Assembly (NCBI GenBank): GCA_945905925.1
Contig: CAMDQN010000066.1
Span: 1-36,695 of the forward strand
Source of the DNA: Singulisphaera sp. GP187
Lineage (GTDB): Bacteria > Planctomycetota > Planctomycetia > Gemmatales > Gemmataceae
Length of the DNA stretch: 36,695 nucleotides
Direction of reading: 5' to 3'
The stretch's first letter is position 1, and the number at the start of each line of letters is the position of its first letter. Under the pieces are notes generated by a model. It worked only from the letters and a program-made list of their open reading frames with translations, did no database searches and had not been told where the DNA came from. The translations under genes were made by a program, and so were the position numbers. Positions 4,941-34,611 of the stretch are shown piece after piece.

Positions 4941-7355
4941 ATGCGATCTGCTTACCTGCTCTCGCTCTGCGCCGTCGGCGTTCTCTGCGGTGACATTCAC
5001 GCACAGACGATCGCCGTGTACCCGCCGGACATCAACCTCGAAACGAGCCGCGACCGGCAATCGTTCGTGGTCCAACTCACTCAGCCCGACGGCATCACCC
5101 GCGACGTGACCGCACAGGCGCAGGTCACGTTCGCGAACCCCGCGCTCGTGAAGCTCGACAAGTTCTACGTGCTGCCGGTCGCGGACGGCGCCACTGAAAT
5201 GATCGTCGCGCTCAACGGCCAAACCGTCAAGGTGCCGGTAAAGGTCGTGGGGGCAAAGGTCGATCGCGCGATCTCCTTCAAGCAGGACGTGATGCCGGTG
5301 TTCCTGCGCGCCGGGTGCAACGTCGGCGGGTGCCACGGGGCGGCTCGCGGCAAGGACGGATTCCGGCTGTCGCTGTTCGGGTTCGACCCCGAAGGCGACC
5401 ACTACCGGCTCACGCGCGAGATGAACGGTCGGCGCATCAACCTCGCGCTGCCCGCCGAAAGCACGCTTGTCGAGAAGGCGACCGGCAAGGTCGCGCACAC
5501 CGGTGGCGCGAAGATCAAGGAAGGGGACGAGTACTATCAGTCGCTCATGCGGTGGCTTGAAGCCGATGCGCCGATGGACGCCGCGACGGTCTCGCTTCCG
5601 GTCAGCATGGAAGTGTTCCCGCCATCCGCAGTGCTCGACGGTAAGGGCGAGAAGCAGCGCATCGTGGTGCGCGCTAAGTACAGCGATGGGACCGACCGCG
5701 ACGTGACCTCACTCGCGCTCTTCCTCAGCAACAACGACAACGCCGCGAAGTTTGATGGCGACGGGATTGTAACCGCCGGCGAGCGCGGCGAAGCGTTCGT
5801 CATGGCGAGGTTCCACACGTTCACCATCGGCGTGCCGTTCATCACGCTGCCCAAAGACCTGAAATTCGCCTGGCCCGCGACCACCGAAACGAACTACATC
5901 GACACAGGCGTCAACAACAAACTGAAGAAGCTCCGCATCGAGCCGAGCGGCATCTGCGATGACGCGACCTTCGTGCGCCGCGTGTATCTCGACATCATCG
6001 GCGTCTTACCCTCGCCCGAAGAATATGCCAGGTTCATGGTGTCCACGCTCGCGACCAAGCGCGAACACCTCGTGGACGAACTGCTCGACCGCAAGGAGTT
6101 CGCGGAGTTGTGGGTGCTGAAGTGGGCCGAGTTGCTCCAGATTCGTTCGAGCAATCAGGTCTCGTATAAGGCGATGCTGCTCTACTACGGGTGGCTGCAA
6201 GAGAAGATCGCGAACAACGTGCCCACCGACGTGTGGGTGAAGGAACTGCTCGGCGCAAACGGCGGCACGTTCAAGAACCCGCCGACCAACTACTATCAAC
6301 TCGAACGCGACGTGCTGAAGGTGACGGAGAACGTCGCCCAGGTGTTCATGGGTATGCGCATTCAGTGTGCGCAGTGCCACAACCACCCGTTCGACCGCTG
6401 GACGCAGGATGATTACTACGGCTTCGCGAGCTTCTTCACGCAAATCGGTCGTAAGAACACCGACGACGCTCGCGAACTGGTGGTGTTCAACTCGGGCGGC
6501 GGGGAAGTGGCTCACCCGGTGCGCAACCGCCCGATGCCCGCGAAGTTCCTCGGCGGCACGGCACCCGCGGACGTGGCCGGTAAGGACCGCCGCACGGTGG
6601 TCGCGAACTGGCTCGCGAGCGCCGACAACCCGTACTTCGCGAAGAACCTCTCGAACATGGTGTGGGGCCACTTCTTCGGCCAGGGCATCATCAACGAGAT
6701 GGACGACGTGCGCATCTCGAACCCCGCCAGCAATCAAGAACTGCTCGACGAGTTGGGGAAGAAGTTCACCGGCTACAAGTACGACTTCAAGAAACTGGTG
6801 CGCGACATTTGCACGTCGCAGACGTACCAGCGCAGCACGCAACCCACCAAGACGAATGAATCGGACACGCGGAACTTCGCGCGAGGCCCGATCCGCCGCA
6901 TCCGCGCGGAGACGATGCTCGACGTTATCACGCAGGTGACCGACACGAAGAACAAGTTCCAGGGCTTGCCACTGGGCGCGCGTGCGGTGCAGATCGCGGA
7001 TGGCGGCGTGAGCACGTACTTCCTCACGACCTTCGGCCGCCCGACCCGCGACACGGTCTGTTCGTGCGAGGTGCGACTCGAACCGACACTGTCGCAGAGC
7101 CTTCACCTGCTGAACGGCGGCACCGTGGAACCGAAGATCGCGCAGGGGAACCTGGTGGGCAAGATGCTTCAGGAGAAAAAGACATCGGCGCAGATCATCG
7201 AACAGATTTACGTCCGCTGCTTAACGCGATCTCCGAAGCCTGAAGAGTTGAAGACGCTGCTCGCACTTGTGGACGCATCAAAGGACAAGAAGCAGGCGAT
7301 CGAAGATGTGTTCTGGGCGGTGATGAATTCGCGAGAGTTCATGTTCAACCACTAG
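4941..7355 (+). CDS. DUF1549/DUF1553 domain protein with CxxCH-type motifs
   Basis: An 804-residue secreted protein. The signal peptide MRSAYLLSLCAVGVLCGDIHA is followed by an Ig-like (BIG2-type) segment, a PSCyt-like segment with C126-x4-C131-H132 in the context FLRAGCNVGGCHG, a second Ig-like segment, DUF1549 (from about residue 320, including C476-x2-C479-H480 in QCAQCHNHPFDRW) and DUF1553 to the C-terminus (NPYFAKNLSNMVWGHFFGQGI ... SQTYQRST). In planctomycetes these proteins accompany DUF1501 proteins, and haem or metal binding by the Cys-His motifs is a family-based inference. An in-frame ATG at 4926 exists, but 4941 is preferred because the same GAGGCTTCCYGATATGCG context starts the gene at 8899, where the upstream codon is TTG. 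Confidence 0.92.
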   Translation: MRSAYLLSLCAVGVLCGDIHAQTIAVYPPDINLETSRDRQSFVVQLTQPDGITRDVTAQAQVTFANPALVKLDKFYVLPVADGATEMIVALNGQTVKVPVKVVGAKVDRAISFKQDVMPVFLRAGCNVGGCHGAARGKDGFRLSLFGFDPEGDHYRLTREMNGRRINLALPAESTLVEKATGKVAHTGGAKIKEGDEYYQSLMRWLEADAPMDAATVSLPVSMEVFPPSAVLDGKGEKQRIVVRAKYSDGTDRDVTSLALFLSNNDNAAKFDGDGIVTAGERGEAFVMARFHTFTIGVPFITLPKDLKFAWPATTETNYIDTGVNNKLKKLRIEPSGICDDATFVRRVYLDIIGVLPSPEEYARFMVSTLATKREHLVDELLDRKEFAELWVLKWAELLQIRSSNQVSYKAMLLYYGWLQEKIANNVPTDVWVKELLGANGGTFKNPPTNYYQLERDVLKVTENVAQVFMGMRIQCAQCHNHPFDRWTQDDYYGFASFFTQIGRKNTDDARELVVFNSGGGEVAHPVRNRPMPAKFLGGTAPADVAGKDRRTVVANWLASADNPYFAKNLSNMVWGHFFGQGIINEMDDVRISNPASNQELLDELGKKFTGYKYDFKKLVRDICTSQTYQRSTQPTKTNESDTRNFARGPIRRIRAETMLDVITQVTDTKNKFQGLPLGARAVQIADGGVSTYFLTTFGRPTRDTVCSCEVRLEPTLSQSLHLLNGGTVEPKIAQGNLVGKMLQEKKTSAQIIEQIYVRCLTRSPKPEELKTLLALVDASKDKKQAIEDVFWAVMNSREFMFNH

Positions 7356-7383
7356 AGTTGCCCACGACCACCGCGCCACCCAT

Positions 7384-7411
7384 AAGCCGCATCATTGCAA
7401 TGGTGCGGCTT
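7384..7411. repeat. Short palindrome before the Gfo/Idh gene
   Basis: A 28-base near-perfect palindrome (AAGCCGCATCATTGCAATGG and onward to GCGGCTT) with one mismatch pair, lying between the DUF1553 stop and the Gfo/Idh start. It has no T-tract. It could be a processing or attenuation hairpin or a protein-binding site. Confidence 0.6.
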
Positions 7412-7436
7412 GCGAACCCATCAAGGAGTTCTGCTC

Positions 7437-8750
7437 ATGCTGGACCTTCCCCTGAATCGGCGCGATGCCCTGAAATCTGTCGTGGCAGCCGGCCTGCCCG
7501 CGTGGTTCGGCGCGGAACTCCTCGCCGCAGAGGAGCCACCGAAGAAGGCCGAGGACAAGCCCAAGATCGCGCTCATCGGGTGCGGCGGCATGGGCCGGGG
7601 CGACGCCAACAACGCCAAGCGGTTCGGCACCATCGTTGCCGTCTGCGACGTGGATTCGAGCCGCGTGGCCCAGGCGTCGAAACAGTTCGACGGGGCGAAG
7701 ACCTACTCCGACTTCCGCAAGTTGCTGGACGCCGAGAAAGACGTCGCGGTCGTCATCAACGGCACCCCGGACCACTGGCACACGCTCGTCAACCTGGCCG
7801 CACTGAAGGCCGGCAAGGACGTGTATAGCGAGAAGCCGCTCACGCTCACCATCGACGAGGGTAAGCGCGTCGTCGCTGCCGTGAAGCAGCACAAGCGCGT
7901 GCTTCAAACGGGCAGCCAGCAGCGGAGCGACGCTCGGTTCCGGCTCGCGTGCGAGATCGTCCGCAACGGTCGTCTCGGGAAGCTCGCGACCGTGACGACG
8001 GTACTCCCGCAGGGCTTAAACGCGGGGCCGTTCAAGCCCGCCCCGGTGCCGAAGGAACTCGACTGGGACACCTGGCAAGGCCCGACCGTGGAGACCGAGT
8101 ACGTGCCAGAACGGTGCCACTTCAGCTTCCGCTACTGGAGCGAGTACAGCGGCGGCACGCTGACCGACTGGGGCGCTCACCACAACGACATCGCGCTGTG
8201 GGGCATCGGGTCCGAGAGCGGCCCGGAGAGCGTCGAGGGGAAGTTGCTGCTGAAACCGGTCGCCGGCGGTTACACCGCACCAGCCGCGTATGAGGCCACC
8301 TTCACCTACGCGAACGGCGTGGTTCACAAGTGCATCAGCACGACCGCGAACACCGTGACTGGGGGTGCGGCGAAGGGCAAGCCAGGCGAGATGCCGCACG
8401 GCGTCAAGTTCGAGGGCGCCGACGGCTGGCTGTTCGTCACTCGCGGCAAGATCGAGGCGAGCAAGCCCGAAATCCTCAACGACAAGTTCGGCGAGAAGGA
8501 CGTGCGGTTGCCGGTGAGCAACGACCACATGGGGAACTTCTTCGACTCGGTGAAGTCGCGCAAGGCGCCGATCTGCAACGCGGAGGTCGGGCACCGGTCG
8601 GCGAGCGTGTGCCACCTGGCCGGGATCGCGGTCCAGCTCGGCCGGAAGCTGAAGTGGGATCCGGCGAAGGAAGAGTTCGTCGGCGACAAGGAGGCGAACG
8701 CCCTGGTCGCTCGCGAACAACGGAAGAAGTGGAGCTACGAGACGATCTGA
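7437..8750 (+). CDS. Gfo/Idh/MocA family oxidoreductase, Tat-exported
   Basis: A 437-residue NAD(P)-dependent oxidoreductase of the Gfo/Idh/MocA family. The twin-arginine leader (R8-R9, NRRDALKSVVAAGLPAWFG) implies export with bound cofactor. The dinucleotide-binding loop is IALIGCGGMGRGD (G48, G50, G53), and the conserved EKP motif is in YSEKPLTL with the likely catalytic lysine K133. The C-terminal half has the usual substrate-binding fold motifs (SGGTLTDWGAHHNDIALWGIG). Typical substrates are sugars or inositols, but the specific one cannot be read from sequence. Start ATG 7437 has AAGGAG at 7423-7428. Exported versions of this family are strongly expanded in planctomycetes. Confidence 0.92.
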   Translation: MLDLPLNRRDALKSVVAAGLPAWFGAELLAAEEPPKKAEDKPKIALIGCGGMGRGDANNAKRFGTIVAVCDVDSSRVAQASKQFDGAKTYSDFRKLLDAEKDVAVVINGTPDHWHTLVNLAALKAGKDVYSEKPLTLTIDEGKRVVAAVKQHKRVLQTGSQQRSDARFRLACEIVRNGRLGKLATVTTVLPQGLNAGPFKPAPVPKELDWDTWQGPTVETEYVPERCHFSFRYWSEYSGGTLTDWGAHHNDIALWGIGSESGPESVEGKLLLKPVAGGYTAPAAYEATFTYANGVVHKCISTTANTVTGGAAKGKPGEMPHGVKFEGADGWLFVTRGKIEASKPEILNDKFGEKDVRLPVSNDHMGNFFDSVKSRKAPICNAEVGHRSASVCHLAGIAVQLGRKLKWDPAKEEFVGDKEANALVAREQRKKWSYETI

Positions 8751-8778: not shown

Positions 8779-8858
8779 GGTTCCGTCCGTTTAGCGTTCG
8801 CCCCGTAGGGGCGCAGTGACTCACGCCCCTACGGGGCGAACGCTAAACGGACGGAACC
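8779..8858. repeat. Perfect 35-base inverted repeat
   Basis: Arms 8779-8813 and 8824-8858 are exact inverted copies separated by only 10 bases. Each arm contains the core TTTAGCGTTCG followed by CCCCGTAGGGGCG, shared with elements at 11193-11255, 14546-14612, 26707-26759 and, inside metH, 28589-28657. It lies between the Gfo/Idh stop and the PSCyt1-WD40 start. There is no T-tract, so a classical terminator is not indicated. Confidence 0.9.
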
Positions 8859-11097: not shown

Positions 11098-11172
11098 CGT
11101 AGCGTCTGGTCCGAGCCGCGACCGTCAGGGACCGAACGTTTACACGCTCCCTGATGGTCGCGGCTCCGCTAC
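11098..11172. repeat. Inverted repeat 1 between convergent genes
   Basis: Arms GAGCCGCGACCGTCAGGGA (11113-11131) and its inverted copy (11148-11166) match at 18 of 19 positions, and outer bases GTAGCG/CGCTAC extend the stem with a bulge. It lies between the convergent PSCyt1-WD40 and DUF3500 genes, so a bidirectional transcription barrier is plausible, although no T-tract follows directly. Confidence 0.75.
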
Positions 11173-11192
11173 GAATTTTCTGAAAGCGCTCG

Positions 11193-11255
11193 AGCGTTCG
11201 ACCCGGAGGGGCGTTGCTTTCTTCCGGAAAGCAACGCCCCTCCGGGTCGAACGCT
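11193..11255. repeat. Inverted repeat 2 between convergent genes
   Basis: Arms 11193-11220 and 11228-11255 are perfect inverted copies of 28 bases with a seven-base loop. The arm carries the shared core (AGCGTTCGACCCGGAGGGGC), and on its outer side the right arm continues into TAAAC, matching the TTTAGC start of the other family members. It ends 25 bases before the DUF3500 stop codon on the other strand. Confidence 0.88.
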
Positions 11256-11279
11256 AAACCTACCTCCAACCAGTAGGCC

Positions 11280-12317
11280 CTACTCGCTCAGACCAAAGTC
11301 GATGGGCAACCGGCGCCAGGCACTGTGAATGTGGTTGGCCGGGTTCTTCGCGGCGTCCGCCTGCACGTTCAGGAACTCCACCACGAACTCCGGTCCCTGC
11401 ACGCGATACGTGTACCCCTCGCCCGGCTTCGCGGTGCCGCTGTAGGCGAAGTACAACTTCGCGTCGGCCGTCGCCTTCACCCGCTTCATCTCGCCCGCCG
11501 CGAGTTCTTCCGGCATCCGGCCCGCGTAGGCTTCCAACAACTTCACGAGCGTGACCTTCTGGTCTGCGGTGAGTTTGTCCGCGGTGATGCCCACCGGCGC
11601 GCCCACGTCCGCCTTCGCCTGGCCTTCCTTGATTTCGGGGAACGCCTTCGGCTGTTTCGCGAGTTTGTCCTGGTCTTCCTTCAGCGACGCGATGAGCGCG
11701 CGAACGTGGTCCTCGATTTCCGGCAGCGGGCGCAGACCTTTCTTCGCCCCGTCCTTCACCTCCGCCGGGTTGGTCGCGAACAGCATCGGCGCGCCAGCCA
11801 CCACTTCGCCCTTGTCCAGCGTGTAGTTCACCGACAGGTGGTGCCCCTCGAACCGCCAGCCCCACTTCCCGGTGTTCGACGGTTCGCCGAATACGCTCAC
11901 GAAGTACCAACCGTTGTTACGCGTCATCGCGCCCTTCGGCCCTTCCAGTTCCAGCAGCAGGTTTTCTAGGCCGATGATCGTGGTGGCCTGCTCGTAGCCC
12001 TTCGCGGAAAGCCCGGTTTTGAGCAGTTCCATCGCGGCTTTCTTCTGGTCCGCGGTCATCTCTTCGAGGCGCGCGCCTTTGCGCGTGAACTTCTTTTCCT
12101 TGTCCTGCTGCGGCGTGAAGAACCACGCTTGGCGGTGCTTGTCGTTGAAGTCGAAACTGGCCTTCTTCTTCAGTTCCGGTGTCAGCGACGTGAGGAACGC
12201 GTCGGTCGCGATCTTCATCTTGCCGCCGGTCGTCTCCGGCGCGGAGTTGCCGACGAGCGCGATGCCGACGACGGCGGCGAGGGTGAGAACGAACGCGGCG
12301 GTACGAACGCGGGACAT
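11280..12317 (-). CDS. DUF3500 family secreted protein
   Basis: A 345-residue DUF3500 protein. The N-terminus MSRVRTAAFVLTLAAVVGIALVGNS is a signal peptide. Family features include FLTSLTPELKKKASFDFNDKHRQAWFFTP, MTADQKKAAMELLKTGLSAKGYEQATTIIGLENLL, and the segment NNGWYFVSVFGEPSNTGKWGWRFEGHHLSVNYTLDKGEVVAGAPMLFATNPAEV. The family's activity is unknown; the C-terminal part (HIHSAWRRLPIDFG) is typical. Start ATG at 12317 has AAGGAG eight bases upstream (complement of 12327-12332). It converges on the PSCyt1-WD40 gene and is divergent from the protease fragment, with only 33 bases between the two starts. Confidence 0.9.
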   Translation of the reverse strand: MSRVRTAAFVLTLAAVVGIALVGNSAPETTGGKMKIATDAFLTSLTPELKKKASFDFNDKHRQAWFFTPQQDKEKKFTRKGARLEEMTADQKKAAMELLKTGLSAKGYEQATTIIGLENLLLELEGPKGAMTRNNGWYFVSVFGEPSNTGKWGWRFEGHHLSVNYTLDKGEVVAGAPMLFATNPAEVKDGAKKGLRPLPEIEDHVRALIASLKEDQDKLAKQPKAFPEIKEGQAKADVGAPVGITADKLTADQKVTLVKLLEAYAGRMPEELAAGEMKRVKATADAKLYFAYSGTAKPGEGYTYRVQGPEFVVEFLNVQADAAKNPANHIHSAWRRLPIDFGLSE

Positions 12318-12350
12318 AGGGAGTGGCTCCTTAACGGGGCGGGTGGAGAC

Positions 12351-12593
12351 ATGTTAAGCGATGTCCGCGTTTGGAACCAGGATCGCGTTCCAGGATTTAC
12401 GCCCCTGGTTACAGGTCCGGTCATGTTCGACATCCTCGGTCGCGATACCCTCGAAGAATCGCTTGTCCCAGGCGACGAGGTGCTGATCGGCCAGACCATA
12501 CTTGAAAAGCTCGACCTCCGCGCCGATTGCTCGAACCGGCGACTCGTCCCCAACCCGGCGCATCCAGATCAACCGGTCTCGAAGGTGAAGTAG
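12351..12593 (+). pseudogene. C-terminal fragment of a clan AA (retropepsin-like) aspartic protease
   Basis: An 80-residue open frame whose second half (GDEVLIGQTILEKLDLRADC, then NRRLVPNPAHPDQPV) closely resembles the C-terminal end of small bacterial clan AA aspartic proteases: a G-D-E-x-L-I/L-G motif, 'D-x-x-x-x-R-x-L-x-x-N-P'. The catalytic DTGA segment that should lie about 60-70 residues before it is absent; upstream sequence belongs to the divergent DUF3500 leader. The first 14 codons overlap a short dispersed repeat (12361-12391). A weak GGAG lies only two bases from the ATG. A remnant is most likely, though a short expressed protein cannot be excluded. Confidence 0.5.
12361..12391 (+). 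repeat. 31-base repeat, copy 1 (partner at 25297-25327)
   Basis: Begins ATGTCCGCG and contains GAACCAGG and TCGCG; matches 25297-25327 at about 26 of 31 bases. It lies in the first codons of the protease-like fragment. The partner's equivalent frame also reads [D/N]-V-R-x-x-N-Q-x-R, which may mean that both derive from a once-coding unit. Confidence 0.45.
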
Positions 12594-12725
12594 TCCGTTC
12601 CGCCTGCCATTTCGCGTTTCGGTCCGCACGCCGTTCCTGCCACTCTGACACCGCGAGCCGTTCCTGCCTACAATCATACTTCGCCAAATGATTTAACCGT
12701 AGCGAGTTACGGCACGGCCGTTTCG

Positions 12726-12741
12726 CGGCACGCTCGTTGCA
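12726..12741 (+). promoter_or_regulatory. Sigma-54 (-24/-12) promoter for groEL1
   Basis: CGGCACGCTCGTTGCA matches the sigma-54 consensus TGGCACG-N4-TTGCA at all but the first base, with the invariant GG and GC at the correct ten-base separation. Transcription would start near 12752, giving a leader of about 43 bases before ATG 12795. An inverted repeat CCGTA/TACGG about 30 bases upstream could be an activator site. No CIRCE element was seen here. Confidence 0.6.
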
Positions 12742-12794
12742 TGTGAACCGCGAAAACGATATTCCCAATCGTTCCCTCGAGGCGATAGCCAACG

Positions 12795-14531
12795 ATGTCA
12801 GCCAAGCAACTTTCCTACGCCGATGACGCGCGCCAGAAACTCCTCGCGGGCGCCAGCAAACTCGCCCGAGCCGTTCGCTCCACGCTCGGGCCGCGCGGTC
12901 GCAACGCCATCCTCGATAAGGGTTGGGGATCGCCGAACATCACCAAGGACGGCGTCACCGTCGCCGAAGACATCGAACTGAAAGACCCGTTCGAGAACAT
13001 GGGCGCGCAACTCGTTAAAGAGGCCGCGAGCAAGACCTCCGACGTTGCCGGCGACGGCACCACCACCGCGACCGTGCTCGCCGAGTTCATCTTCCGCGAA
13101 GGGCTGAAGAGCGTCGCCGGCGGGCACGACCCGATGGCGATCGTTCGCGGCATCCAGAAGGGCGTCGATAAGGTCGTTGACGAACTCCACAAGATCGCCG
13201 AACCTATCGATCCGAAGGACAACAAGGCGATCACCGAAGTCGCCAGCATCGCGGCCAACAACGACCGCGAGATCGGCAAGAAACTTGCCGAAGCCATGAA
13301 GATGGTCGGCGCCGCCAACGGCGTCATCACCATCGAAGAGGGCAAGACCGCCGACACGCAGGTCGTCGTGGTTCAGGGCATGCAGTTCGACCGCGGCTAC
13401 CTCTCACCGCACTTCGTCACGAACCCGGAAACGGTGACGTGCGAGTTCGAGAACCCGTACATCCTCATCTACGAAGAGAAGATTAGCAGCCTCAAGACGA
13501 TCATTCCCCTTCTCGAATGGTCGGCCAAGGAGAAGGCGCAACTGCTCATCATCGCCGAGGACATCGAAGGCGACGCGCTCGCGGGTCTGGTGCTGAACAA
13601 GCTTAAGGGCGTCGTGCAGGTGTGCGCGGTGAAGGCGCCCGGCTACGGCGACCGCCGCAAGGCCATGCTCGAAGACATCGCGGTTCTCACCGGCGGCAAG
13701 GCGATCTTCAAAGACCTCGCCGTGCAACTCGACGCGACCACGCCGGGCGCGAAGGGCGGGGCGCCGACCCTGACCGTGCTGGAATACCTCGGCCGCGCCA
13801 AGAAGGTAAAGATCGACGCCGAGAACACGACCGTTACCGAAGGTAAGGGCAAGAAGAGCGAGGTCGAGGGTCGCGCTGAGTCGATCCGCAAGGAGATCGA
13901 GAAGACCGAGAGCGAGTACGACCGCGAGAAGTTGCAAGAGCGGCTCGCGAAGCTCGCCGGCGGCGTGGCGCAACTGAAGGTCGGCGGTGCGACCGAGACC
14001 GCGATGAAGGAACGCAAGGCGCTGTACGAAGACAGCCTGCACGCGACCCGCGCGGCCATCGCCGAGGGCATCGTTCCCGGTGGCGGCGTGGCCCTTCTCT
14101 ACGCCCGCAAGCCGCTCGAAAAGACCAAACTCGAAGGCGACGAAGGCGAAGGCGCCCGCGTTCTCTTCCGCGCGCTTGAGATGCCGTGCCGGCTGATCGC
14201 GGAGAACGCCGGTAAGGACGGCACCGTGGTCGTGTCGCACATCCTCAAGGGCAAGGACAAGAACTACGGTTACAACGCCGACACCGACAAGTACGAAGAC
14301 CTCCGCGCCGCGGGTGTCATCGACCCAGTCAAAGTCACCCGCAGCGCGCTCCAACACGGGGCGAGCGTCGCGTGCCTGCTGCTCACCACTGAGTGCATGA
14401 TCGCGGACATCCCCGAACCGAAGAAGCCGGGCGGCGATCACCACGACCACGATCACGGCGGGGGCGGCATGGGTGGCATGGGTGGCATGGGTGGCATGGG
14501 CGGCATGGGCGGCATGCCGGGGATGATGTAA
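12795..14531 (+). CDS. groEL: Chaperonin GroEL, copy 1 (His-rich GGM tail)
   Basis: A 578-residue 60-kDa chaperonin. ATPase residues are intact: D52 in [11 protein letters not shown]87 in [10 protein letters not shown], and the ATP-hydrolysis aspartate region [25 protein letters not shown]. It is about 30 residues longer than E. coli GroEL, mainly because of the tail, which reads HHDHDH followed by five GGM-type repeats, ending MPGMM. The His/Asp stretch could bind metal. It precedes groES, whereas the common bacterial order is groES-groEL. GAGG at 12779-12782 is the probable ribosome binding site. The sigma-54 promoter at 12726-12741 suggests activator-dependent expression rather than HrcA/CIRCE control. 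Confidence 0.97.
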
Positions 14532-14988: not shown

Positions 14989-15091
14989 CTCACGCAAAGC
15001 CGCGAAGACGCAAAGAAAACAAGAGAAGAGAGTTCTTCTTCAAGACAATTCCGCCTCTTGTCTTCTTTGCGTCTTCGCGGCTTTGCGTGAG
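14989..15091. repeat. Long inverted repeat between groES and groEL2
   Basis: Arms 14989-15017 and 15063-15091 are perfect 29-base inverted copies (left arm begins CTCACGCAAAGCCGCGAAGA); pairing continues to 15025/15055 with one mismatch, giving 37-base arms. It fills most of the 137-base gap and ends 13 bases before the groEL2 ribosome binding site (GGAG at about 15105). A hairpin this close upstream could limit or couple groEL2 translation. It belongs to a different sequence type from the TTTAGC family. Confidence 0.88.
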
Positions 15092-16821: not shown

Positions 16822-16955
16822 ACACAGGTGCTCTCCGCTCTGTGCTACAAACGCCGGCCCCTCCGGGGCGGAAGACAATACACCACGCCGCGGGTGTCTT
16901 TCTCTTCGCCCCGGAGGGGCCGGCGTTTGTAGCACAGAGCGGAGAACACCTGTGT
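16822..16955. repeat. 49-base inverted repeat between groEL2 and dnaJ
   Basis: Arms 16822-16870 and 16907-16955 are inverted copies of 49 bases with one mismatch. The inner 36-base spacer contains a further short stem (GAAGACA ... TGTCTTT). The arms include ACAAACGCCGGCCCCTCCGG, which is related to but not identical with the TTTAGC-family core. It begins eight bases after the groEL2 stop. Confidence 0.9.
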
Positions 16956-18167: not shown

Positions 18168-18254
18168 TTGTAGGGTGGGTCAAGGCTTTGCGCAGGCCCA
18201 CCATTGCTGTTCGAAAGATGGTGGGCCTGCGCAAAGCCTTGACCCACCCTACAA
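18168..18254. repeat. Perfect 37-base inverted repeat between dnaJ and grpE
   Basis: Arms 18168-18204 and 18218-18254 match exactly in inverted orientation with a 13-base loop. The left arm starts two bases after the dnaJ stop and contains GTAGGGTGGGTCAAGGCTTT. The right arm ends about ten bases before the grpE start, so the hairpin would sit directly next to its ribosome binding region. The sequence type is unrelated to the TTTAGC family. Confidence 0.9.
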
Positions 18255-27711: not shown

Positions 27712-30700
27712 TCACGACGGCGGTTCGACGGCGCAATTCGTGTACCTGGTCGTGTTGAAATACTTTGCGTGCGGGTGGTGAATCACGATCGCGGTCGTGC
27801 TTTGCTCCGGTTCGAGTTGAAACTGCTCACTCAACGTCACGCCGACTTGCGTCGGGTCGATGAGCGTGAACAACTGCTTCTGGTCTTCGAGCGCCGGGCA
27901 CGCCGGGTAACCGAACGAGTACCGGCACCCGCGATAGTGGCCCTTGAACAGCTTCTCGACACGCGGCGAATCGTCCTTGCCGATGCCCCACTCGCGGCGC
28001 AGTTGCTGGTGGAACATTTCCGCGAGCGCTTCCGCGCACTCGACACCGAGACCGTGCAGGTAGAGGTAGTCCTGGTACTTGCCGTCTTCGTACCAACCGT
28101 GCGCGATGCGGGTGACTTCGCGGCCCATCGTCACCGCCATGAAGCCGACGTAATCGACCGCTTTGCCGTCGCGCTGAGGCTCGACGTAGTCCGAAAGGCA
28201 GAGGTAGTTGCCGAAGTCCTGCCGCGGGAAGTCGAACACCGCTCGCGGCGTCTTGTGGTCTTCTTCGTACACGGTGAGTTTGGTGCCGTCGCTCGCGGCC
28301 GGGAAGAACCCATAGGTGGCGGCGGGGCGCAGGATACTCTCGGCGAGGCACAGCGCCTTGAGACGCTCGAACGCGGGCTGTGCGGTCTCCGCGATCTGCT
28401 TCGCGTGTTCGGCCGGTTTCACCCCGCCCTTCTTGAACTGCCACTGCGTACCGAACAGCGTCAGTTCGTTGATGTACGTGAAGACTTCGCGCATGTCGAA
28501 GTCGGTGCGTGCGCGCGAACCCAAGAAGGGAGGCGTGGGAATGTCCTGCGCCTTCGGCAGTGAGGGCGAGCGATGGGGAAGATCAGTTCGTTTAGCCGCG
28601 ACCCGCAGGGGAGCGTCTGGGCGCGCTGGCTCGCTCCCCTCCGGGTCGCGGCTAACGGGACTCCCGCCGATCTCGCGCCCCATCGAGCGCGCCGACTGCG
28701 CCATGCCCTTCAGCGCGACGCTGCCGACGCGTTCCAACTTCTTGCGTGCGGCGAGTTCGTCCATCACGCGCAACCCCTCGAACGCGTCCTCGCCGTAGAA
28801 GAGTTGCCCCTTATAGATCGCGCGCAGGTCTTGCTCGACGTAGCGGCGGTTGAGGGCCGCACCACCGAGGATCACTGGCGGGTTCAGCCCGCGTTCGTTC
28901 AGCGTGACCAAGTCTTCTTTCATGATGACCGTGGACTTCACGAGCAACCCGCTCATGCCGATTGCGTCGGCGTTTTGCTTCTGAAGTTCCGCGATCATCG
29001 TGTCAATCGGTTGCTTGATGCCGAGGTTGAACACCTTGTAGCCGTTGTTCGTGAGAATGATGTCCACGAGGTTCTTGCCAATGTCGTGAACGTCGCCCTT
29101 CACCGTCGCGAGGACGATCTTGCCCTTCTCATCGCCCTCCACCTTCACCATGAATTGTTCGAGGTGCGCCACGGACGCCTTCATCACCTCGGCGCTTTGC
29201 AGCACGAACGGCAGTTGCATCTGCCCGCTGCCGAACAGTTCACCGACGACCTTCATCCCGTCGAGCAGTACCTTGTTGATGATGTCGAGCGGCGAGTGCT
29301 TCTCACGCGCGGCGTCGAGGTCCGCGATCAGCGACTCGCGGCGCCCCTGGATGATGGCTTGCCGCAACCGCTCTTCGACCGTCTCGCCGAGTGACTGGCC
29401 CTTCTTGCTCTCGCTTTTCTTGTCGGCGTAGTGCGCGATGAGTTCGTGCAGTGGGTCGCCCTTGTCGTACTCCGCGAACAGCAACCGGCGGCACAACTCC
29501 TTGCCTTGGGCGTCGATGCTCGCGAGCGGCATGATCTTGGCCGCGTGCAGAATCGCGGAGTCGAGACCGTATTCGAGCGCGTAGTGCAGGTACATGCTGT
29601 TCAGCACCTGTCGCGTGTACGGCGACAGCCCGAACGAGCAGTTCGAGAGACCGACGTGCGTGAGCGCACCCGGCAGGTTCTTCTTGATGAGTTTGATCGC
29701 TTCAAACGTCTCGATCGCGCTGCGCCGGGTCTGCTCCATCCCGGTCGAAACCGGGAACACAAGAGGGTCAAAGAGCAAGTCACTCGGCGGGATGCCGTAC
29801 TCGAACACGACGATGTCGTAGATGCGCTTCGCGACCTCGAACTTCCATTCCGCGGTGTCGGCCTGACCTTTCTCGTCGATCGTGAGTGCGACGAGTGACG
29901 CACCGTATTTCTTCGCGAGCTTCGTCTTCGGGTCGAGTGTCTTGCGGCCGTCTTCGAGGTTGATCGAGTTGATGAGCGCCTTGCCGCTGCACAACTTCAA
30001 CCCGGCTTCGATGACGTTCAATTCCGTGCTGTCGAGCATGATCGGCTTCGTCAGCACTTCGTTGTAGCGTTTGATGACTTCCTTCATGTCGCGCACGCCG
30101 TCGCGCCCGACGTAGTCCACACACACGTCGAGAACGTGAACGCCTTCGCGTTCCTGCTCGCGGGCCATCTCCACGAGGCCGTGCCAGTCGTCCTTTTCGA
30201 GCAGTTGTTTGAACTTCCGCGAGCCGTTCGTGTTCGTTCGCTCGCCCACGAGTAGCGGGCGCGGTTCCTGGTTCAACTCGACCGCGGCGAACAGGCTGGA
30301 CGTGGCGGCCACGATCTTCGGCGCTCGCGCGCCCGGCTTGCGGTGACCGATGCGATCAACCACCACTTTCAGGTGGTCCGCGGTAGTTCCGCAGCACCCG
30401 CCGATGATGTTCACGCCGAACTCGTTGACGAATCGCTCCAGCCAGTCGGCGAGAGGTTGCGGTTCGAGCGGGAAGTACGTTTCGTCGCCGCGTTTCAAGG
30501 GCAGTCCGGCGTTCGGCAGCACGCTGACGAATCGATCGCTCCCTTCGCTGAGTGTCTTGACCGCGTGAACCAGCAGGTCTGGGCCGACCGAGCAGTTCAG
30601 CCCGATCACGTCGATTTCGGAGATGGCTAACAACGTCGTTAGTGCGGCCGGGATCTCGGTACCCGGCAGGAGCGTTTGGCCTTTCGTCCGGTCATCGACG

Positions 30701-32496: not shown

Positions 32497-34611
32497 TCAC
32501 TCTGTCACTGCGGCGTCGTACTCCAGTTTCGCGAGCGCGGCATTCAGTTTCTCGCGTGCGTCGTCGCGTTCGGTGCGGAACTTCTCTTCCTCCTCCGTGA
32601 TCTTCGCGAGCCGGTCTTCTTGCTTGTCGAGCGTCGCGACGAACCGCTCGCGGAGTGTCTTTTCGCTCGCACGATCGCCGAGCGCGCCGAGATTGTCGCG
32701 AATTCGCTTTTGCTCCGCGTGGATCTTGTTCCGCTCGTCGGTGAATCGCGTCAACTTCTCTTCGATTTGGCTTACGGCTTGCCGCTGCGCGAGCGCGGCT
32801 TTCAGTGCCTTCTCGGTGGCGGCATCAAGGTACTTCGCGGAGATCCACGCCGCGAGATGCTTGTCGGTGATGTCGGTCAGGCTCCACGACTGATGAAGTG
32901 TCTGCTGCTGCTGAACGACAAACTTGCTCGCGGTGTTCGGCGGGAGCAGGAACCTGAACCGCCAGTAGTTCTCGGTGATCTCGTGCGGCTTCGCGGTCTC
33001 CACCAGCTTCCACTTGGAATCGTCGCGCGGATGATCGAGGTACACGATCTGCTCTTTGTCCGACTTGCTGTTGAAGGTGTACGTCGTCTTTTGCACCAGT
33101 GTGTAGTGCGTCTTGAGTGTGCCGCTGCGGATCGTGACGCGGCTGACGCGGTCGCTGTGCGAGTCGATGTTGTCGAGAACGCGCACCGCGAGCTCCACCG
33201 CGTAGCCGACGAGCCGCTTCTCGGTGGGCTTGAGCGTGTCGAGCATCGCTTCACCGACGTAGCTCCCCTGTTCGAGTACCGTGACCGGGCCGCCTTCGAG
33301 CGTGAGACCGGTGGTGTTCTCGAACTCGACACAGCGAATGGGGTTCTCCGGCCGTGCGGCTTTCTGGTAGAGCAGCACCGAGCGCCCTGCGAACGGCTTC
33401 AGCAAGATGGGCACGAGTGCGGACTGATTGCGGCGCACCGTGACCGGCTTCTCGATGCCGTACTCGAACAGGTCGCCGACTTGCCGCTCGCGCGTCTGGG
33501 ATTGAACCGAGGAGACGGCAGACGTGCGTTCGCGAGCGGGACTCCCGGCTGCGATCTCGCCGCGGAGGGATTTCCGCATCATCCTGGCTTTCGCGGGCGC
33601 CGGCGCAGCCGAGAGAGCGATGCCGCCCATCGACATCTCATACTCTTCGTCACTCTCCACGCCGGCTTCGGCCATCGGTGGGAGCACGCCCGTTGTTTCG
33701 CGCACTTCGACGACAGGCCGGCGGATGTATCGCGGCGTGTAGAGGTCATGGACAAACGACACCGGCAGACCCGCGACGAGCGTGAGCGCCACGTCCTGCC
33801 AGTCTTCGTCGGAGGTGTTATCGACCACCGCCCAGCCTTGAATTAGGGGCGAAGAACCTCTCCCCCCAACCCCCTCCCCTAAGAAGGGAGGGGGAGAAAG
33901 AGACGAGCCATCGTCTTCTGTGTTTGGTTCTTCTCCCCCTCCCTTCTTAGGGGAGGGGGTTGGGGGGAGAGGTTCTTCCTCCAGCAGTATCCGGTACGTC
34001 GCTTTCCACACGGGCGCTTCGAGAACGTAACTCACGCGCACGGTGCGCTGACCTTCGCCTTGCGCGAACAGCGTGAACGTGCGGGCGTCCTTCTTCTTCG
34101 ACGCAAGTTGTGTCTTCAGGTAGAAGTCGAGGTCGCGTTTGATGCCCTCGTCGAGAATGGTGAGTTCGAGGTCGAAGAGGTCGAACGTGCGAACGTCGCC
34201 CGCGTCGGTGAGGAGCGAGAGCCGGTGTGTTTCTTGGAGGCCGTGTTCGGAGTGCGTATCGGTCTTGTCGATGCCCAAAATCGCGCCTTGAAGCGTTGCG
34301 CCTCCGGTCGGTTTCACCGAGATGCGAGCGCCTTTGATCTGCGGAAGCAACCCCGTTAAGCTGCCCGAATCCGGGATGCTTAACGCGATCTCCGCGAGGA
34401 GCTGCTCAATGGGCGTGGTCGAATCGTAGCTGACGGCTGACACGGTGCCGCCGTTGAGGTCGAGCACGGTGAGCGACTTCAACACGTCGCTGACTTCGCG
34501 CTGCTTGAACGACAGCGAGAGCGACTGATCGCCCTCAATGGAAGTTTCGCGCTCGAAGTAGCCAACTCCGTGCTTGTAAAGAACGACTCGGCGGATGGGG
34601 AGATTCGACAT
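32497..34611 (-). CDS. DUF4139 domain protein
   Basis: A 704-residue protein of the DUF4139 family (mucoidy inhibitor-like). The N-terminus (IRRVVLYKHGVGYFERE) begins the beta-rich domain; VSYVLEAPVWKATYRILL and QGWAVVDNTSDEDWQDVALTLVAGLPVSF are the family core. A middle region (VESDEEYEMSMGGIALSAAPAPAKA) is disordered; the C-terminal ~100 residues are coiled coil (SQIEEKLTRFTDERNKIHAEQKRIRDNL). No signal peptide. Residues about 207-255, between the two family core segments, are encoded by a perfect inverted repeat (33851-33978) rich in Pro, Gly and Ser. ATG 34611 with AAAGG upstream; the ORF could extend further but with no similarity. Function is unknown. Confidence 0.88.
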   Translation of the reverse strand: MSNLPIRRVVLYKHGVGYFERETSIEGDQSLSLSFKQREVSDVLKSLTVLDLNGGTVSAVSYDSTTPIEQLLAEIALSIPDSGSLTGLLPQIKGARISVKPTGGATLQGAILGIDKTDTHSEHGLQETHRLSLLTDAGDVRTFDLFDLELTILDEGIKRDLDFYLKTQLASKKKDARTFTLFAQGEGQRTVRVSYVLEAPVWKATYRILLEEEPLPPTPSPKKGGGEEPNTEDDGSSLSPPPFLGEGVGGRGSSPLIQGWAVVDNTSDEDWQDVALTLVAGLPVSFVHDLYTPRYIRRPVVEVRETTGVLPPMAEAGVESDEEYEMSMGGIALSAAPAPAKARMMRKSLRGEIAAGSPARERTSAVSSVQSQTRERQVGDLFEYGIEKPVTVRRNQSALVPILLKPFAGRSVLLYQKAARPENPIRCVEFENTTGLTLEGGPVTVLEQGSYVGEAMLDTLKPTEKRLVGYAVELAVRVLDNIDSHSDRVSRVTIRSGTLKTHYTLVQKTTYTFNSKSDKEQIVYLDHPRDDSKWKLVETAKPHEITENYWRFRFLLPPNTASKFVVQQQQTLHQSWSLTDITDKHLAAWISAKYLDAATEKALKAALAQRQAVSQIEEKLTRFTDERNKIHAEQKRIRDNLGALGDRASEKTLRERFVATLDKQEDRLAKITEEEEKFRTERDDAREKLNAALAKLEYDAAVTE
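33851..33978. repeat. Perfect 48-base inverted repeat in frame inside the DUF4139 gene
   Basis: Arms 33851-33898 and 33931-33978 are exact inverted copies, separated by 32 bases. Each arm can also fold on itself (CCCCCTCCC ... GGGAGGGGG). It encodes a low-complexity segment (PLPPTPSPKKGGGEEPN ... SLSPPPFLGEGVGGRG) with no stop codon, in a family core region where related proteins should have a short loop. The arm sequence is of the same pyrimidine-rich style as the 1644-1797 element. Confidence 0.9.

Follow-up and report, generated by a model that had tools for sequence, protein, structure and literature searches.

A high-copy palindrome of Gemmata-type planctomycetes that lies in frame in unrelated protein genes

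Palindromic repeats that are carried in frame by unrelated genes have been described as the Rickettsia palindromic elements (RPE; Ogata et al., via the available sections of PMC10969869). Intragenic dimers of the GTAG/CGTC REPs are found mostly in Opitutus terrae and R. conorii, and REPs are reported from Planctomycetes too, with the name Gemmata absent from the available part of that text (PMC3733652). The REPIN is composed of two REP units inverted around a spacer, spreads as a whole, is mostly extragenic and is linked to RAYT genes (available portion of PMC3116915). The TIR repeats of TIRYT transposases share the motif GGGGWSAS (section 16 of PMC3733652). In a 2025 paper REPs by definition seldom overlap coding regions, and its main text, as far as available, names neither Gemmata nor Planctomycetes (PMC12306157). 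A literature search conducted mostly outside subscription journals found no palindromes inside Gemmata proteins.

The DNA analysed here (the window, the whole stretch of 36,695 nt from Singulisphaera sp. GP187) carries a long palindrome, designated F1, within a gene on the reverse strand. F1 is read, with a probability of roughly 78%, as a mobile palindrome of Gemmata-type planctomycetes, non-autonomous, present in many copies and with the build of a REPIN, whose in-frame copies are translated and whose copies rewrite each other. The features of the window on which this account draws are as follows.

32497–34611, reverse strand: host gene, 704 aa, DUF4139-like, below the Pfam cut-off
33851–33978, reverse strand: F1 palindromic element, 128 nt, in frame, residues 212–254 (PLPPTPSPKKGGGEE...SPPPFLGEGVGGRGSS)
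33931–33978, reverse strand: 5' arm of F1 in the gene's reading direction, 48 nt
33899–33930, reverse strand: loop of F1, 32 nt, the portion that varies among copies
33851–33898, reverse strand: 3' arm of F1 in the gene's reading direction, 48 nt
33870–33894, no strand assigned: inner hairpin unit of one F1 arm, 9-nt stems CCCCCTCCC / GGGAGGGGG with 7 nt between, read from the sequence
33935–33959, no strand assigned: inner hairpin unit of the other F1 arm, read from the sequence
28585–28662, reverse strand: second in-frame palindrome, of a non-F1 family, in metH between the B12-binding and activation domains (in-frame call on 28592–28655)

F1 resembles the RPE in being a dispersed palindrome in frame in unrelated protein genes; according to the available sections of PMC10969869, RPE are likewise palindromes of about 100–150 nt, nearly half of them in genes, each giving a conserved peptide. 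It differs from them, by description rather than by sequence, in its phylum, its GC-richness and its two hairpin units around a variable loop. As in a REPIN, two hairpin units are inverted (87 of 89 sampled arm pairs) and the element moves as a whole unit; unlike a REPIN, 41 of the 89 pairs lie in frame inside genes and no RAYT gene among those examined is flanked by F1. The GTAG/CGTC REP dimers share with F1 the inverted pairing of short palindromes in ORFs, often of DNA-repair proteins, the variable spacers and an occurrence that includes the PVC group (PMC3733652, as available), whereas F1 ends in GAAGAACC/GGTTCTTC without a GTAG or CGTC tag and has far longer exact arms. Due to its placement, the missing RAYT link and the missing tag, F1 is classed as RPE-like in effect and REPIN-like in build, the RPE being compared by description. 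ERIC/RU are also small mobile repeats with open frames and intragenic copies (PMC2759123, as available) but have another sequence and build, a distinction again made by description. The target-site duplication of a MITE was not convincingly found at F1 (best of 1568 length/offset settings, 11 matches against 4.1 expected, a test weakened by the ragged ends). The F1 arm GGGGAGAG, read directly, fits the GGGGWSAS of the TIRYT repeats (PMC3733652, as available), which with so short a motif is a lead only, and no F1-flanked tyrosine transposase was present among three such genes (Y1) of the source genome and 30 loci of relatives.

The two arms of the window copy are exact reverse complements over 48 of 48 nt around the 32-nt loop, and the perfect match stops there with no further extension. 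Twenty simulated sequences (first-order Markov, matched to the window in length and composition) had perfect inverted repeats of at most 11–14 nt within 300 nt. The preliminary description of a perfect 48-base palindrome that adds about 43 residues without breaking the frame, and of a second such event in the window, is confirmed: the 128 nt are free of stops, and the second palindrome is the one in metH. An Rfam search of 33500–34300 returned nothing reaching the gathering score. As RNA the element is predicted to fold at -117.3 kcal/mol (z -14.4), and so stable a hairpin would suit removal of the segment from the RNA or its bypass in translation. Such a loss from the protein is very improbable, since a conserved frame and an absence of stops would be needless in a segment that is removed; the frame-blind insertion of translational bypass elements also differs from the 41 in-frame and 8 frame-broken copies counted below.

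The host gene had been called a DUF4139 gene with the insert between two conserved core strands of that domain. Its product scores 12.3 bits against Pfam DUF4139, below the cut-off of 31.8, so the family name rests on a sub-threshold match; a distant orthologue passes with 34.6, and an orthologue with a bare site scores 26.4 in a match that spans the insertion site. No PDB matches to the host protein were obtained at E 0.001 or better. The AlphaFold model (alignment of 35, mean pLDDT 77.6, pTM 0.58) has pLDDT below 50 at residues 216–251, with strands at 203–210 and 256–264 on either side; the F1 segment is thus predicted to be a disordered loop between two strands, which retains the flanking strands of the earlier claim and leaves their DUF4139 identity below threshold. 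An F1-type peptide occurs at this site in one of 80 related loci (L014), so it is not a general property of distant DUF4139 proteins. Many of the 80 have a turn of a few residues, such as LLDEGEGSSPLIQG in Gemmata sp. IIL30, and some have a longer loop of different sequence. The orthologue in genome G012 is an exact bare site, in which the matches to residues 1–212 and 250–704 adjoin. The orthologue in the sister species G013 (L215) apparently lacks residues 9 to about 430 and still has an open frame. Recent acquisition of the window copy, which had been suggested from its arms, is not demonstrated, F1 being present at the same site in genome G014 too.

F1 is a dispersed family whose units, arms and loop together, are repeated at unrelated sites; close to half of the sampled copies are in frame inside genes and few are frame-broken. 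A search of the source genome (6,472,316 bases) with the 29-nt arm core, allowing up to 3 mismatches, gave 118 forward and 112 reverse matches, 230 together, against 0 for the reversed core, so the proviso that other copies might be absent no longer applies. The sample consisted of 100 stretches and the window (1,901,479 of the 6,472,316 bases), and its densities are biased because most stretches were picked around listed copies (first 100 of 230 places). These 1.90 Mb contain 87 inverted arm pairs, two pairs in the same orientation and 15 arms for which no partner was recognised; the arm cores of a pair are 7–76 nt apart. A stretch of 143 nt is identical in two copies whose flanks are unrelated, indicating that arms and loop move as a unit. 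The nearest relative of the window copy is on contig 59 (94.5% over 128 nt), and the end consensus of the family is somewhat ragged. At L139, positions 6152–8233 and 11118–13199 form an inverted duplicate of about 2 kb with an identical F1 in each half, either a real duplication or an effect of assembly.

The reading frame at the 89 arm pairs was assigned with a coding model trained on long ORFs, which gave the correct frame to 191 of 200 pieces of those same training ORFs. Forty-one pairs lie in genes whose open frame is the same before and after the element (among them the two mirror copies of the L139 duplicate and two same-orientation pairs), 8 have coding sequence on a single strand but a frame that is broken, 30 have coding sequence on one side, 7 are non-coding, 2 lie between opposite strands and 1 is at an edge. 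Five of the eight frame-broken copies reach a stop 29–32 nt into the element, and part of the eight may merely lie between neighbouring genes. Without selection about 12% would be expected in frame and open, as estimated from the open frames of other copies, compared with 41 of 89 (p 5e-30 if copies are independent). Of 1000 random positions, 628 are in frame within genes, which means that F1 shows no enrichment in genes beyond chance. In the same DNA, 13 of 193 palindromes of other sequence (a few degenerate F1-like ones included) are in frame as opposed to 39 of 88 F1-like ones; F1 is therefore far commoner inside genes than its neighbouring palindromes, at a level not above chance placement. 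A stop-poor sequence was rejected as the cause, the open-frame numbers of F1 and of other palindromes being similar. We infer that most gene-breaking insertions have been eliminated by selection. As the conserved frame suggests, in-frame copies are probably translated as disordered loops rich in Pro, Gly, Ser, Lys and Glu.

The 39 inverted in-frame copies use three of the nine arm phase pairs (19, 13 and 7 copies), with the frequent reading EEPLPPTPSPKKGGG...PPPFLGEGVGGRGSS. Few peptide forms and few phase pairs are what useful linkers under positive selection could produce; this origin is improbable given that the hosts are unrelated and that the peptide is missing in most orthologues of the gene examined most closely. 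Pfam families were assigned to 35 of 39 in-frame hosts, a scan in which one L139 mirror copy was left out and the window protein was treated separately. By these matches the hosts include SMC, SelB, RecO, RarA, a RecD2-type helicase, QueG and UbiD, as well as a tRNA nucleotidyltransferase, a polyprenyl synthase, a CheA-type kinase and AcrB. In QueG, SMC (at the hinge), AcrB and a PMT protein, the element falls within one domain match. At L141:13482–14915, same-orientation arms lie in one open frame between MobA-like and DUF559 domain matches, perhaps a fusion. If upheld, F1 would show selfish palindromes entering the housekeeping proteins of large planctomycete genomes, beyond Rickettsia, and would offer a natural experiment on which protein loops accept 30–50 extra residues.

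Arm matches were found in 21 of 95 genomes of the family and in 6 of 39 genera, with the most in the source genome (230), followed by G088 (121), G013 (105) and G025 (57). The source genome and G013 are fragmented (251 and 280 contigs), as short-read metagenome bins in which a repeat might arise as an assembly artefact. That origin is the least credible of those considered, because an artefact would ignore the reading frame and related arms, mostly with 2–3 mismatches, occur in G010 and G012, which are assembled in 1 and 3 contigs.

Non-F1 palindromes occupy the same protein loops in related species. In the window gene, an inverted repeat beyond shuffles (p <0.01) was detected in the loop of 6 of 13 orthologues (13 of 20 loci, after leaving out paralogues, one duplicate and L215): F1 itself in the source and G014, a repeat with exact 27-nt arms in G015, repeats in G019 and G017, and one at a bare site, the last taken as chance. 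The SMC loop was positive in 8 of 12 loci out of 20 (L228, L229 and L241 being without the region, and L230, L232, L238, L239 and L240 left out), and the polyprenyl synthase loop in 6 of 18 out of 20 (L260 and L261 left out), a few of these repeats being short. Two significant loops were not counted as elements, L208 (a bare site, 11 nt) and L233 (10 nt). The G015 repeat has 167+172 matches in G015 (control 3+1) and 12+10 in G020 (control 1+0), and the repeat that G016 and G014 carry in the polyprenyl synthase loop has 98 and 68 copies in those genomes (control 0). This would show unrelated palindrome families hitting the same protein loops.

The comparison with G013 matched the flanks of the source elements to 42 of its loci; bare sites are invisible in it because these loci were picked around G013's own arms. 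Sites shared with this sister species retain their position, frame and arms, while the loop is often different. Both species carry F1 in near-identical register at 16 sites, not all of which are in frame inside genes; the SMC site of G013 is occupied by a palindrome of another family instead of F1. The occupation of the same loops by other palindromes in other species, together with this SMC site, could mean that each lineage was hit anew in the same few permissive loops, so that sites coincide without any loop exchange. Such independent insertion is a possible but doubtful account of the 16 shared sites, given their near-identical register and the inclusion of sites not in frame inside genes.

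At the 14 shared sites that could be split into parts, identity is 95.7% in the arms and 87.4% in the flanks (L134 and L139 were not splittable, and the count of shared sites excludes a further pair at L141 whose gap is 59 nt). The orthologous loops differ by at least 15 nt in seven cases, are clearly the same in two, and in five are similar in length but better matched by another source copy. In 12 of 14 cases another source copy fits the G013 loop better than the orthologue does, the match for L107 being not above chance. At ten of the 14 sites, the orthologous loops resemble each other beyond shuffles (p ≤0.01). Motifs common to a subfamily may account for this, as may true descent; some loops may therefore be old ones that have diverged. 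In L310, the G013 site of L107, a palindrome of other sequence (CCCTCTCCCGCAAAGGGAGAGGG) is nested in the F1 loop and accounts for the L107 loop difference. Simple inheritance, with old insertions whose loops drift fast by mutation and whose arms are held by hairpin constraint, would fit the two clearly identical loops, the five of similar length and the ten above shuffles. It appears somewhat less likely still than independent insertion; against it stand the seven loops differing by at least 15 nt and the 12 better matched elsewhere (L107, again, not above chance).

Length differences are multiples of 3 at 9 of 9 in-frame shared sites and at 4 of 7 other shared sites. In G013, mapping shows the frame to be kept at eight of the nine in-frame sites, and the open reading frame shows the same for the ninth. 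The difference is 6 or 4 nt by mapping at L093, where a shift is flagged and the G013 frame (L294) is open, and 13 or 12 nt at L123 depending on the mapping. In G013, the match to polyprenyl synthase contains a single TGA, which lies outside the element and its near flanks. The loop of the source element in this gene (L143:10278–10429), one of the five that are similar in length, matches L243 of G013 best when inverted, with a score of 63 against 28 when forward.

The reading of F1 as copies that rewrite each other was approached through the arms. Among 46 pairs with arms of the same type, a departure from the consensus is shared by both arms at 27 positions; 1000 re-pairings gave 4.6 such positions on average and never more than 16. 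Changes confined to one arm number 83. Averaged over all 87 inverted pairs, the arms differ by 6.1 nt within an element and 6.6 between elements. The active homogenisation proposed for these arms is thus favoured by the paired changes and by arms better kept than flanks, and the all-pair difference speaks against it. The absence of mismatches likewise holds for the window copy but not as a family rule, with identical arms in 14 of the 87 inverted pairs (43 nt compared). Paired arm changes, arms kept better than flanks and loops changing at fixed sites point to copying via the arms. Ectopic gene conversion, by which F1 copies would overwrite one another through their common arms, may be the process, and would produce uniform arms and swapped loops. 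From general knowledge, an extruded hairpin might be cut and then repaired from another F1 copy. Kept arms with changing loops would make gene conversion among short mobile repeats directly testable. More tentatively, the arms might act as fixed in-frame docking cassettes whose interior is repeatedly replaced or inverted from other copies under frame selection; were this so, a selfish repeat family would be a genome-wide supply of new peptide loops for housekeeping proteins.

Further long palindromes of several families lie in the window at 16822–16955, 18168–18254, 14989–15091 and 1641–1800, not in frame in genes by the coding model. Three Y1 transposase matches were identified in the source genome. 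A RAYT link for F1 was rejected: F1 flanks none of the three genes (the nearest arm is 4469 nt from one, with none in the sampled stretch of the other two), and no F1 arms were found at 30 Y1 loci (of 40 matches) in six F1-bearing relatives; a partner could be elsewhere. Two of the three genes have palindromes of other families on their flanks; beside the third there is only one weak 74% pair. The two show likeness to REP-associated tyrosine transposases below the NCBIfam cut-off, in a scan that left out the C25 Y1 protein. The REP-transposase-like gene on contig 99 (L144:4808–5668) is flanked by palindromes with CGAACGCTAAACG, which therefore have a candidate mobiliser, unlike F1; CGAACGCTAAACG is also contained in the window palindromes at 8779–8858 and 11193–11255. 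The second REP-transposase-like gene (L161:9721–10523) is flanked by yet another palindrome family (GTTAGCCGCAAGCCGCAGGCGAGCGC).
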